NCBI GenBank assembly: GCA_027483535.1
Contig: JAIXUN010000004.1
Coordinates: forward strand, 62,001 to 126,000
Length of the DNA stretch: 64,000 nt
DNA from: a bacterium
GTDB taxonomy: Bacteria; Armatimonadota; Fimbriimonadia; Fimbriimonadales; Fimbriimonadaceae
Direction of reading: 5' to 3'
The translations under genes were made by a program, and so were the position numbers. This document shows positions 58,137 to 62,931 of the stretch, piece by piece; positions within the stretch are counted from its first letter, which is position 1; the number at the start of each line of letters is the position of its first letter. The notes below the pieces were generated by a model that was given only the letters and a program-made list of their open reading frames with translations, ran no database searches and had not been told where the DNA came from.

Positions 58137-59651
58137 ATGGCGGTCGTGCTTTCGAAATCGGACTTCATGCTGTACCTCAGCCACCCGGCGTGGCTGTGGC
58201 TGAAGAAGCACGACAAATCGAAGCTGCCCGCCGTCGACGACAACCTTCAGGCCCGATTCGACGCCGGACTGAACCTGGAAGGGTACGCCGAGCAGCTCTT
58301 CCCCGGAGCGATCCGCCTAGGATTCGATGGTTACGACGAGTTCTTGACCCTTGCCTCGCGCACCGCGACGGCGATGCAAGAGGGTGCGAAAACCCTTTTC
58401 CAAGCCAAGTTCGACCACGAAAACCTCACCACCATCTGCGACATCGTGGAGGTTCTCGGCGAGCGCGAAGTGGCGATCACCGAGATCAAAGCGAGCACCT
58501 CGGTGAAGGACAAACACCGAATCGACCTTGCCTATCAGCGGTACGTTCTGGAACAGTGCGGGTTCAAGGTGAGCCGATGCTCGGTGCTGTTGGTGAACAA
58601 CAAGTACATCCGATCGGGAGAGATCGACCCGCAAGAACTGTTTGTTCAAGAAGAAATCACTGAAGCGGTCGCGAGAGAACTTGGGTTCATCGCCGCCGAG
58701 GTGGAGAAGGCGCTCGCCGTGCTGGAGTCGCCAACTGTGCCCGACCTTTCGCCGAGCCACTGCGGAACGCTCGACAAAGACTCGCTCTCGGCTTGGGTAG
58801 ATATCTACCGGACGCTGAAACCCATCCCGGAGAAGAGCATTTACGATCTTCCCGCCGTCACCCCGCAACAGATCGGCGAGTTTGAGGACAGCGGGATTCT
58901 GACCATTGCCGATATCCCGGAGGACACCTTCCTTTCTAAGAAACAGCGAGAGGCGGTGGACGTGCTGCAGTCCGGCGAGATTCGGATCGATCAAGGCAAG
59001 ATCGCCTCTTTCCTTCGTGCGGTGCAGTATCCGGTCTACTTTTTGGACTACGAAGGGTGCATGGATGCGATTCCACCGTTCGAGGGCACCAAGCCGTACC
59101 AGCAGATCGTGATTCAGTGGAGCCTGCACGTGCTGCCATCGCCCGGGGGCGAGCTTGAGCATTACGAATACATTCATCAGTCCACCGAGTCGCCGTTTGA
59201 AGCGGTCTCGGCGAGTTTGAGAGAGAGGCTCGGCGATACGGGTTCGGTGATTGTTTGGTACAAGAACTACGAGTGCGGTCGCAATAAAGAGCTTGGCGAG
59301 CTTGCCCCGGCTTATGCCGATTTCTTTAGGTCGGTGAACGATCGGGTGGTGGACCTGATGGAGATTTTCTCCAAGAAGATGTACGTTCACCCCGAGTTTT
59401 TGGGGAGCGCGTCTATCAAAAAGGTGCTTCCGGCGGTGGTGCCGGACCTTTCTTACAAAGAGTTGAACGTGCAGGAAGGGGCCACCGCTTCTCGGCTATG
59501 GACTCAAGCGGTGCTGCAAAACAAGTTCTCGGCGCCCGAGCGGGAGAAGATCCTTTCCGATCTGCTCACTTATTGCCAACTCGATACGCTTGCGATGGTC
59601 GAGATCTATCGGCGGATGGTCGAGGTGGCGGAAATAACAAAAGATGCTTGA
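58137..59651 (+). CDS. DUF2779 nuclease-like protein
   Basis: 504 residues. N-terminal half resembles a PD-(D/E)XK (RecB/Cas4-like) nuclease: D102 in TICDIVEV and E116-x-K118 in TEIKAS. The C-terminal half is DUF2779, beginning FLDYEG (D304, E306), which resembles the DEDD exonuclease/RNase H-like entry motif. It is a plausible DNA-processing enzyme with two nuclease folds; no defence or repair partner is adjacent. Its 3' end carries the hairpin that terminates the convergent gene. Confidence 0.85.
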   Translation: MAVVLSKSDFMLYLSHPAWLWLKKHDKSKLPAVDDNLQARFDAGLNLEGYAEQLFPGAIRLGFDGYDEFLTLASRTATAMQEGAKTLFQAKFDHENLTTICDIVEVLGEREVAITEIKASTSVKDKHRIDLAYQRYVLEQCGFKVSRCSVLLVNNKYIRSGEIDPQELFVQEEITEAVARELGFIAAEVEKALAVLESPTVPDLSPSHCGTLDKDSLSAWVDIYRTLKPIPEKSIYDLPAVTPQQIGEFEDSGILTIADIPEDTFLSKKQREAVDVLQSGEIRIDQGKIASFLRAVQYPVYFLDYEGCMDAIPPFEGTKPYQQIVIQWSLHVLPSPGGELEHYEYIHQSTESPFEAVSASLRERLGDTGSVIVWYKNYECGRNKELGELAPAYADFFRSVNDRVVDLMEIFSKKMYVHPEFLGSASIKKVLPAVVPDLSYKELNVQEGATASRLWTQAVLQNKFSAPEREKILSDLLTYCQLDTLAMVEIYRRMVEVAEITKDA

Positions 59652-59687: not shown

Positions 59688-60359
59688 TTACGCCTTGCGC
59701 TTTCGTCGGAAAGCAGCCAAGGCTCCAATTCCGAGTGCGACCATGGTAGCGGGCTCCGGCACAGCCTGAGTCAGTGAAAGAGAGTCGATCAGTACGCTGC
59801 TGTCCGTGCTTCCGAAAGACGAGAAGCTGAAGGCGAGCTGAGTCGTCGTGGCATCGGTCGTGAACTGAATCGAGCGTTGCTGCCAATCGAACAGCCCCGG
59901 AGTCGCCGAAAGGTCCGTGATAGCATCGTTCGTTTGCATCGACTGGATCTGAACCAACGTGTTCGCGGCGGTGTATCCGAAGCGATCGCCCCCAGCGTGC
60001 CAGAAGGAGAAGTCGTAGGTCGTGTTTGGGTTCACGCTCACCAGAGTCGTGATCCGGTCGTAGTCTCCGAAGGTAGAGCCGGTCTCGTTCCAGTACGTGT
60101 TGGGGTTGCCGCCCCCGTTTTGGAGAACATCTGCGTACCAGTTGCCCGAATGTGCGGCGCGACCGGTTTGGCTTTCAAACACTTCGCCGTCGGTTTGCGT
60201 GGCCGTCCAACCCGCGTCGAAGTCGGGATACGCCCTGAAGGACCCGGCGTCGCCCAGGATGGATCCGACCGATTCAAAGCCCGGATCGGTAAAAAAATTC
60301 GCGTGAGCCGAAATAGCGCCCATGAGAAGGGCGGAAGAAGCAATAAAACGATTGAGCAT
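59688..60359 (-). CDS. PEP-CTERM sorted exported protein
   Basis: 223 residues. Signal peptide MLNRFIASSALLMGAISAHA, then NFFTDPGFESVGSILGD and a long beta-sandwich-like region (GRAAHSGNWYADVLQNGGG, TTLVSVNPNTTYDFSFWHAGG, AFSFSSFGSTDSSVLIDSLSL), similar in plan to the protein at 17160. C-terminus VPEPATMVALGIGALAAFRRKRKA is the exosortase signal. GGAGGAG precedes the ATG. A hairpin terminator follows. Confidence 0.9.
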   Translation of the reverse strand: MLNRFIASSALLMGAISAHANFFTDPGFESVGSILGDAGSFRAYPDFDAGWTATQTDGEVFESQTGRAAHSGNWYADVLQNGGGNPNTYWNETGSTFGDYDRITTLVSVNPNTTYDFSFWHAGGDRFGYTAANTLVQIQSMQTNDAITDLSATPGLFDWQQRSIQFTTDATTTQLAFSFSSFGSTDSSVLIDSLSLTQAVPEPATMVALGIGALAAFRRKRKA

Positions 60360-60449: not shown

Positions 60450-61211
60450 CTAGCCGCTCAGCGTGCCCGATCGGGTGTACGGCGCGGTGGTATCGATATG
60501 GAACAGCACCACATCGGCATAAGAGCCGTGCGTTTCTAACTTCACGTACTCTTTCACCGCCCACGCGGCGGTATCGCCTTGATTCAGCGTGACGTTGCCC
60601 ACTCGAACCGTGCCCGAGAATACGTAAAGCACCTGAACGTCGTACTCTTCCGGAGCGTCAGGCTCCGGCCAAGGAAGGGCATCGCCCAGCGAGAGTTCGG
60701 AGTGAGGGGTGAGACGAGCGTCGTGCATCCACACCCGCTGCCTCACCTGAAGCGGGGCATCGGTGCCTTCCGGACCAAAGACCGCTCGCCACGCATTGGT
60801 GGATACCGCCGAATCGAAGGTGTGAAACGCAACCTTCGGCTCCAGATCGTCGGACGAGGGCCTGACGAAGATTTGCAGCATGTGCACCTCCCCTTCCGGC
60901 ACAAACTCTTCGTGTTTGAACCCAGAGCCCGCGTTCATCACCATGAGGTGGGTGTTGGTGATGGTCTCCTGGTTTCCGTTGCTATCCTTGTGAACCATCG
61001 CGCCGGATCGGAGGTAGCTGACGATTTCGTCGTTTCGGTGCTCGTGCATGCGCACGGTGAGCCCCTGATAGAGGTGCGCATGGTCGATGGGTCCAAGCCC
61101 GGCGATGCCGCGATCGTTGAGGTCGGGCACGGATTGTCCGGGGTAGATCCGTTTGATCACAAACGGCGGAGCCCCAAAAGCGGTTCTTCGAGCGGCGGGT
61201 AGCAGGCGCAT
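60450..61211 (-). CDS. Pirin-family bicupin
   Basis: 253 residues. GIAGLGPIDHAHLYQGLTVRMHEHRNDEIVSYLRSGAMVHKDSNGN carries the pirin first-cupin metal site (HxH-like with Glu), followed by NAGSGFKHEEFVPEG and MLQIFVRPSSDDLEPKVAF. Pirins are iron cupins acting as quercetinase-like enzymes or redox-sensing cofactors. The frame is open to 61406, but that extension is translation of the four-copy repeat at 61294-61376; ATG 61211 with TAGGA upstream is the likely start. Confidence 0.88.
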   Translation of the reverse strand: MRLLPAARRTAFGAPPFVIKRIYPGQSVPDLNDRGIAGLGPIDHAHLYQGLTVRMHEHRNDEIVSYLRSGAMVHKDSNGNQETITNTHLMVMNAGSGFKHEEFVPEGEVHMLQIFVRPSSDDLEPKVAFHTFDSAVSTNAWRAVFGPEGTDAPLQVRQRVWMHDARLTPHSELSLGDALPWPEPDAPEEYDVQVLYVFSGTVRVGNVTLNQGDTAAWAVKEYVKLETHGSYADVVLFHIDTTAPYTRSGTLSG

Positions 61212-61293
61212 CAGCAGATTCCTACGCCGAATCGGTTGGGAATCGGTGCGTTGGGTGGAAAGGTCGTACCGCTGAGGATTGAAGTGTATGGAA

Positions 61294-61376
61294 TTTACGA
61301 GTAATTGCCGTACAGGATTTACGAGTAAAAGCCGGTGATGATTTACGAGTAATTGCCGTACAATATTTACGAGTAA
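61294..61376. repeat. Four direct repeats upstream of the Fic gene
   Basis: TTTACGAGTAA occurs at 61294, 61318, 61342 and 61366, each exactly 24 bp apart, alternating with two spacer types (TTGCCGTACA.. and AAGCCGG..), so the higher-order unit is 48 bp copied twice. Copies 2 and 4 read TTTAC-GA-GTAAA, an inverted repeat. The last copy ends 7 bp before the Fic ATG 61384. Probable operator array; both divergent genes could be controlled. Confidence 0.75.
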
Positions 61377-61383
61377 AAGCCGG

Positions 61384-62931
61384 ATGCGCGATCGAAAAAC
61401 CCCCAACGAGCGACTCGCCGAGTCGCTGGAACGCCTTCAGCAATGCGCGCCGGGAGGCATCTATCGTAGCGGGGGACTCAGTCAGCGAGACTTCAAGCGG
61501 GTCTCTCAGGCGGGTTACCTGCAGGAGATCATCAAGGGTTGGTACCACCTTTCTAACCCAATGGCGCCCCCTGGAGTGACCCTTTGGCATGGGCACTATT
61601 GGGGCTTTTTGAGCGCCTACCTTGCCGAGCGATACGGTGACGATTACTGCTTGGCGGCAGATACTTCTCTATTGGTTCACTCCGGCCTAACGGCGGTTCC
61701 CACCGAGATTGTAGTGGTCACAGCGGTCGCGTCCGGAAATCGTCTGGAGTTGCCGTACGGTCATGGGCTGGTCTCTTACAAGGATATGCAAAGCCTGCCC
61801 TCCAATCCAGAGATCGTCAACGGTTTGCGAATCATGCCGTTGCCGATGGCGCTCGCCCGATCCTCAGAAGGCTTTTTCCGAAGGCAACCGCTAGACGCAG
61901 CCGCTCTTTTGCAATCCATTCAAGACCCCTCTCAGATTCTGCGAGAACTTCTGGATAGGGGCGCACCCGTTTACGCGGGTCGACTCGCGGGGGCTTTTCG
62001 TCGATTGGGCAAAGAAGATTTTGCGAATCGGGTGCTGGATACCATGCGATCGGCGGGTTACGAAGTGACCGAGAACGATCCGTTTGAGTCACCCGTTCCG
62101 ACGCTAGGCAATCTCCGAATGCGATCGCCCTACGCGGCCCGCCTTCGGCTTCTTTGGGAAACCATGCGGCCGGCGGTCTTACAGAACATTCCGGCAAACA
62201 CGCTGAAAGTGCTGCCCGCGGCCGACTACTGGGAGCGGGTCGAAGCGTTGCAATCGTTCGACGCCTATCACTCGCTTTCGATTGAAGGTTTCCGGGTTGA
62301 TAACGCGCTGATCGAAAAGGTTCGATCCAATGCTTTCGATCCGGCGAAGCTCGACGAGGATCGAGCCCTTGCCGATGCGCTGGCGGCTCGCGGCTATTGG
62401 GAATCTTTCCAACGGGTTCGTGAATCGCTGAAAGAGGTCCTTGCCGGAGCCAATGCGGGCGAGGTCGCCCGCAATCATCACTCGGGGTGGTACCGAGGGT
62501 TGTTCGAACCGGCAGTTCGGGCGGGTCTTCTTGGTTCAGGCGACTTGGCGGGTTACCGAAACCATCAGGTTTACATCAACGGGTCGCAGCATATTCCGCT
62601 CCCCGCACACGCTGTCACCGACGCGATGGAGACCTTTTTCGATCTGCTTGCGGAGGAGCCAGAGGTCTTTGTAAGAGCCGTTCTAGGGCACTTCTTCTTT
62701 GTCTTCATCCACCCGTATGGTGATGGAAACGGGCGGCTGGCTCGATTCCTCATGAACGTGATGCTCGCCGGAAAAGGTCTCCCGTGGACAGTCGTTCACT
62801 TAGAAGATCGAGCCCGGTACATGTCGGCTTTGGAAACCGCTTCGACTCAAGGAGAGATCACGCCCTTCGCCAGATTCATTCGAGAGCAGATGGAAAAGAC
62901 GCTCCGCAACGACAATCCCCAATCGATGTGA
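61384..62931 (+). CDS. Fic-domain AMP-transferase with N-terminal AbiEi-like region
   Basis: 515 residues. The N-terminal part (about 20-175: SGGLSQRDFKRVSQAGYLQEIIKGWYHLSNP, LAADTSLLVHSGLTAVPTEIVV) resembles an AbiEi-type winged helix. The C-terminal Fic domain has an intact H443-PYGDGNGR motif ending at Arg454. An inhibitory helix motif S297-xxx-E301-G302 lies N-terminal, marking a class II self-inhibited Fic enzyme. It probably AMPylates a protein when released. The four-copy repeat directly upstream and the winged helix suggest self-regulation. Confidence 0.9.
   Translation: MRDRKTPNERLAESLERLQQCAPGGIYRSGGLSQRDFKRVSQAGYLQEIIKGWYHLSNPMAPPGVTLWHGHYWGFLSAYLAERYGDDYCLAADTSLLVHSGLTAVPTEIVVVTAVASGNRLELPYGHGLVSYKDMQSLPSNPEIVNGLRIMPLPMALARSSEGFFRRQPLDAAALLQSIQDPSQILRELLDRGAPVYAGRLAGAFRRLGKEDFANRVLDTMRSAGYEVTENDPFESPVPTLGNLRMRSPYAARLRLLWETMRPAVLQNIPANTLKVLPAADYWERVEALQSFDAYHSLSIEGFRVDNALIEKVRSNAFDPAKLDEDRALADALAARGYWESFQRVRESLKEVLAGANAGEVARNHHSGWYRGLFEPAVRAGLLGSGDLAGYRNHQVYINGSQHIPLPAHAVTDAMETFFDLLAEEPEVFVRAVLGHFFFVFIHPYGDGNGRLARFLMNVMLAGKGLPWTVVHLEDRARYMSALETASTQGEITPFARFIREQMEKTLRNDNPQSM

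Follow-up and report, generated by a model that had tools for sequence, protein, structure and literature searches.

Direct 24-bp repeats upstream of an AbiEi-like/Fic fusion gene: a putative autogenous operator with a periodicity conserved in relatives

The repeat array and its genomic setting

The window, the 64,000-nucleotide stretch of DNA analysed here, carries a gene encoding a 515-amino acid (aa) protein with an AbiEi-like N-terminal part and a Fic domain (61384..62931, + strand). An array of short direct repeats precedes this gene, in the region between two divergent genes: that of pirin (start 61211, 82 bp from the array) and that of the Fic protein (start 61384). The genome that contains the window has relatives that are tentatively Fimbriimonadales-like. 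The next gene after Fic encodes an MmgE/PrpD protein; AbiEii (DUF1814) is absent beside it, the AbiEii genes of this genome being located on other contigs. Elsewhere in the window are genes for a DUF2779 protein that weakly resembles Cas4/RecB-like nucleases (58137-59651, + strand) and for a PEP-CTERM protein that may have a carbohydrate-binding domain (59688-60359, - strand).

Direct reading of the DNA confirmed the four-copy array reported in a preliminary description of this locus: the core TTTACGAGTAA occurs at 61294, 61318, 61342 and 61366, a step of exactly 24 bp. The corresponding repeat units, all on the + strand, are ATTTACGAGTAATTGCCGTACAGG (61293..61316), ATTTACGAGTAAAAGCCGGTGATG (61317..61340), ATTTACGAGTAATTGCCGTACAAT (61341..61364) and ATTTACGAGTAAAAGCCGG (61365..61383), the last of which is shortened by the start codon. 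The final core ends at 61376, 7 bp short of the ATG (61384) as that description had it, and the gap between the array as a whole and the start codon is within one base. Because the spacers between cores alternate, the array also has the proposed 48-bp higher-order unit: its first 43-bp stretch shares 95% identity with the third, and the two differences between these copies convert TACAGG to TACAAT. A search of the array region in the window revealed no sigma-70-like promoter, and -10-like hexamers are not enriched in the arrays of relatives (p 0.19).

The core is present at these four sites only across the whole 3.77-Mb genome. A search with an 18-letter version of it (ATTTACGAGTAANNGCCG), allowing up to 3 mismatches, yielded four matches in the window where 0.28 are expected, a number reached by 0 of 100 shuffles; genome-wide, such matches do not exceed a reversed-pattern control, with only background outside the array. 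Confinement of the motif to one genomic spot therefore suggests a local operator rather than a regulon. No such period precedes the other genes of the window, except for the same array viewed from the pirin side.

Two features of the preliminary description fared less well. The first is a perfect palindrome, TTTAC-GA-GTAAA, in two copies: its 5-bp arms are indeed perfect, but its centre is asymmetric (reverse complement TTTACTCGTAAA), it occurs in only two of the four copies and it is absent as a conserved feature in relatives. The palindrome is for these reasons not the defining feature and was rejected as a functional site; judging from the sequences compared, it is incidental, and the conserved feature is the head-to-tail repeat. 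The second concerns pirin, whose upstream region the array was said to cover as well. The array does lie between the two genes, but a role for pirin is unsupported and this neighbour is not conserved: other genomes of the genus have only distant pirin homologues, neighbours differ elsewhere, and pirin was rejected as a co-regulated partner. On the - strand, no stop interrupts the pirin frame (60450-61406) across the array as far as a TTG at 61406; its translation there would contain LLVN repeats, but we judged this stretch noncoding because relatives have other neighbours and some have 23-bp periods.

The AbiEi-like/Fic protein

The protein begins with a winged helix (aa 7-56; 61402..61551, + strand), the presumed DNA reader, followed by a second AbiEi-like domain (aa 66-223; 61579..62052, + strand), both delineated by AlphaFold2 models and fold matches; the elements of the winged helix are H7-21, E26-28, H34-42, E46-50 and E53-56. 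The AlphaFold2 model built from an 11-member alignment has a pLDDT of 87, and that of aa 1-243 alone a pLDDT of 88.8. In a Foldseek search with aa 1-243, the top two PDB entries are AbiEi (6y8q, 4.6e-5) and Rv2827c (1zel, 5.5e-4), with a probability of 1.00; with VIA-align, 1zel scores Z 9.9 over 217 residues and 6y8q Z 9.1 over 177. As residues 7-240 match both structures across both domains, the AbiEi-like winged-helix N-terminus of the preliminary description is borne out by the predicted structure. The third-ranked fold match, MenT1 (Z 8.1), covers the second domain only, which leaves a small margin for that domain on its own. In these models, both domains within the N-terminal ~240 residues resemble AbiEi.

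Pfam and NCBIfam recognise only the Fic part of the protein (Pfam Fic, E 3.6e-13, aa 387-461) and have no family over the N-terminal part. PADLOC AbiEi matches are weak and limited to a few members (E 0.009-0.04), and a search of the PDB with the N-terminal sequence returned only artificial helical repeats, so that the AbiEi assignment rests on fold comparison.

The Fic catalytic motif HxFx(D/E)GN(G/K)R is present as HPYGDGNGR (aa 443-451; 62710..62736, + strand), with Tyr for Phe; H443, D447, N449, G450 and R451 are invariant among 31 members of the family. The class II inhibitory motif (S/T)xxxE(G/N) is present as SLSIEG (aa 297-302; 62272..62289, + strand), in which S297-E301 is invariant and G302 nearly invariant (31 members). 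The closest solved relatives of this part by sequence are FICD enzymes. With both motifs intact, it is classed as a class II Fic AMP-transferase, the activity being predicted.

Periodicity and motif divergence among relatives

Relatives were collected from the same genus, from two other genome contigs, from plasmid records and, via a profile, from IMG/VR contigs. The full-length relatives are 36-53% identical to the window protein in end-to-end alignment. The plasmid set comprises 75 records that cover 80% or more of the query, and a profile scan of viral contigs yielded nine IMG/VR members; the same contigs gave no match with a single protein as the query, and phage records contain no full-length member. 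Members span the Armatimonadota, the alpha-, beta- and gammaproteobacteria, the Bacteroidota and others, and are located on chromosomes, plasmids and IMG/VR contigs.

The DNA upstream of each gene was examined for self-matching at lags 12-48 within 250 bp. In a first round (n=32, window included), a lag of 23/24 or its double is among the top lags in 32/32 members and the best in 31 (z 4.2-13.4), with p ≤0.013 for each member under mononucleotide shuffling. The exception (G012) has a separate duplication of 17 bp that is one match ahead, with 48 and 24 next. The nine IMG/VR members show the same 23/24-bp periodicity, as do three additional members from the same phylum, two of them weakly. Overall, 23/24-bp direct periodicity is found in the 250 bp before the gene in all 44 full-length members (window included); it ranks first among the periods in 43 of these and is weak in three. 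Since some members are close kin (three Rhizobiaceae copies, four IMG/VR contigs), the independent cases number approximately 35, fewer than 44. The period is 23 bp in eight members. Neighbouring genes vary between relatives, while the array remains with the Fic gene. The preliminary description had proposed looking for the same motif upstream of orthologues: the periodicity is conserved throughout, an outcome that favours its reading, but the motif itself changes. The G012 genome additionally contains fragments of further AbiEi-Fic-like genes (G012:C123:1554-1982 and G012:C120:33555-33782), one with an internal TGA.

Control genes, which have only one part of the fusion, lack the signal. For 24 other Fic genes without an AbiEi-like part, z values taken at lags 22-25 and 46-48 have a mean of 0.49 and a maximum of 3.35, compared to 4.2-13.4 for the family. 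Two nearly identical Fic-less homologues of the N-terminus (G139:C502 [L131, 2811-3509, - strand] and G137:C89 [L132]) have no array upstream. No 23/24-bp direct array accompanies the two abiEi-abiEii operons of the window's own genome, L139 (G000:C1:2027500-2030400) and L140 (G000:C4:561800-565000); L139 is preceded by a 17-of-23 inverted pair, recalling the known AbiEi arrangement. In L140, the AbiEii reading has a stop in the six-frame match.

When stacked, the units consist of one variable box and a steadier CA approximately 9 bp upstream, with A-rich letters between. In the window and in a Bacteroides plasmid member the box reads ACGAGTA; a relative with 53% identity has TCGAGTA, and ACTTG, ACGTG, CCTAA, TTAGTG and others occur elsewhere. 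A skeleton common to the units of the 24-bp-period members, T.G.AC..CA..A.A..CTAG.A., scores 6.96 bits, compared to a maximum of 4.26 bits when the register is destroyed (0/100 reach the observed value). Unit orientation relative to the gene is constant in all members, copy number as measured is 1.5-6.3 units (mean 3.8), and the distance from array to start codon is 0-76 bp. Motif similarity tracks protein similarity (Mantel r 0.22-0.38), and a partial Mantel test allowing for the Fic part detects no link specific to the N-terminus. For residues 30-60, the partial r is 0.14 (p 0.037, uncorrected), and no single residue stands out as tied to the motif. Compared with the family profile, the two Streptococcus agalactiae AbiEi repeats give p values of 0.41 and 0.026. 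One genome (G005) has two AbiEi-Fic members with different boxes (G005:C160, L040; G005:C60, L039); these copies are possibly insulated from each other.

Putative autoregulation and comparison with known systems

AbiEi of S. agalactiae and Rv2827c of Mycobacterium tuberculosis each repress the promoter of their own gene, where they bind 23-bp repeats (PMC7319586, PMC3985639). Like the AbiE type IV TA system, AbiEi-Fic combines a two-domain AbiEi fold (predicted here) with 23-24-bp repeats before the gene. Given this unit size, the fold and the association of array and gene in several phyla, autoregulation by the N-terminus is the likeliest reading: we consider it likely that the array is an autogenous operator on which one AbiEi domain per repeat represses its own Fic gene. 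The protein would join a whole AbiEi-type antitoxin to a class II Fic AMP-transferase that carries its own inhibitory motif. Each 23/24-bp repeat would be bound by a single molecule through its winged helix, and several molecules would align head to tail over the repeats by the start codon and block transcription. Expression would thus drop as the protein accumulates (negative autoregulation), and enzyme activity would stay at a low basal level pending some trigger. Counting against this reading are the inverted arrangement of known AbiEi repeats, a motif divergence that shows no link specific to the N-terminus, the differing p values of the two S. agalactiae repeats and the negative promoter searches. 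Tight autoregulation is plausible because CccR and others are toxic (PMC9755527).

Two differences set AbiEi-Fic apart from AbiE. There is no AbiEii nucleotidyltransferase partner, the enzyme being the Fic domain on the same chain; and in place of inverted pairs, the repeats are direct, in a row of approximately two to six with one orientation. The direct rows, unlike the inverted pairs of known AbiEi, suggest that the molecules are probably monomers arranged head to tail. On B-DNA (10.5 bp/turn), successive 24-bp units are calculated to be approximately 103 degrees apart and therefore do not lie on one face of the DNA.

The rival that best survives, although an unlikely one, is that another regulator (a host repressor or activator) binds the array, and that the AbiEi-like part acts on the Fic enzyme only. 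This would agree with the lack of a specific tie between motif similarity and the N-terminus, but the array travels with the gene across phyla, plasmids, chromosomes and differing neighbours, where a host factor would differ; moreover, the motif occurs at one genomic place only, and the predicted fold is shared with a protein known to read 23-bp repeats and to repress itself. That the array instead functions as an RNA leader structure, as its position adjoining the start codon might suggest, is very unlikely: there is no Rfam match, it lies anywhere between 0 and 76 bp from the start codon in different members, and in the window this gap is within a single base. Iterons, the plasmid repeats of replication and copy control, have a similar unit size, direct orientation and a winged-helix partner. 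These resemblances, together with the many relatives on plasmids, would favour an iteron-like role, which is nevertheless scarcely credible given that no replication gene is among the window's neighbours, no rep neighbour is constant in relatives, and some relatives lie on large chromosomal contigs (e.g. the 7.6-Mb contig of G119). Just as improbable is a plain tandem duplication or coding repeat with no regulatory role, such as an N-terminal extension of pirin: 24 is divisible by three and the - strand frame is open, but relatives have other upstream genes, the 23-bp period of eight of them precludes a reading-frame repeat, and with periodicity kept in 44/44 and a unit skeleton common across species, sequence comparison with relatives largely refutes this explanation.

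The proposed autogenous repression by AbiEi-Fic has partial precedents among Fic proteins. In CccR of Yersinia pseudotuberculosis, a Fic domain and a DNA-binding domain share one polypeptide, as predicted for AbiEi-Fic; CccR is shown to bind and repress its own promoter (PMC9755527). The domain order is reversed, however: in CccR the Fic domain comes first, followed by a C-terminal HTH, and no AbiEi-like part is described. The CccR operator has two inverted 10-bp boxes 26 bp apart rather than a direct row. CbFic2 of Coxiella burnetii is likewise a class II Fic enzyme and carries a winged HTH, and DNA binding alters its activity (PMC10628234); unlike AbiEi-Fic, its HTH is C-terminal and of the DeoR type, and no specific operator is known. 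HTH domains fused to Fic have been proposed to regulate fic expression (PMC2686095), and where that paper discusses these fusions, the HTH types named include none that is AbiEi-like and no operator is described.

HTH-bearing Fic proteins, including one autorepressing case (PMC2686095, PMC9755527), and AbiEi autoregulation are thus already known. A search limited to open-access literature on AbiEi in combination with Fic, direct repeats or fusion found no account of an AbiEi-Fic family or its arrays. A distinct cis-regulatory signature marks out a family among genes annotated merely as 'Fic family protein', which reside on plasmids as well as chromosomes in several phyla, and this signature supplies a testable candidate operator for every member. 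AbiEi autoregulation and Fic autoinhibition, studied separately to date, would be united in one partnerless gene, and the diverged arrays offer natural data on DNA recognition by an AbiEi-type winged helix in a row of monomers instead of inverted pairs.

A bolder and rather doubtful extension is a one-gene TA-like module whose antidote would include the DNA array: AbiEi-Fic molecules packed head to tail on the 23/24-bp repeats would be enzymatically inactive, and the AMP-transferase would be freed once the DNA or its occupancy is lost; the repeat motif and the protein would then change together, with no cross-talk between copies. On two Rhizobiaceae plasmids (L063 and L064), the AbiEi-Fic gene is located between traH and traM, in a conjugation/quorum-sensing region.
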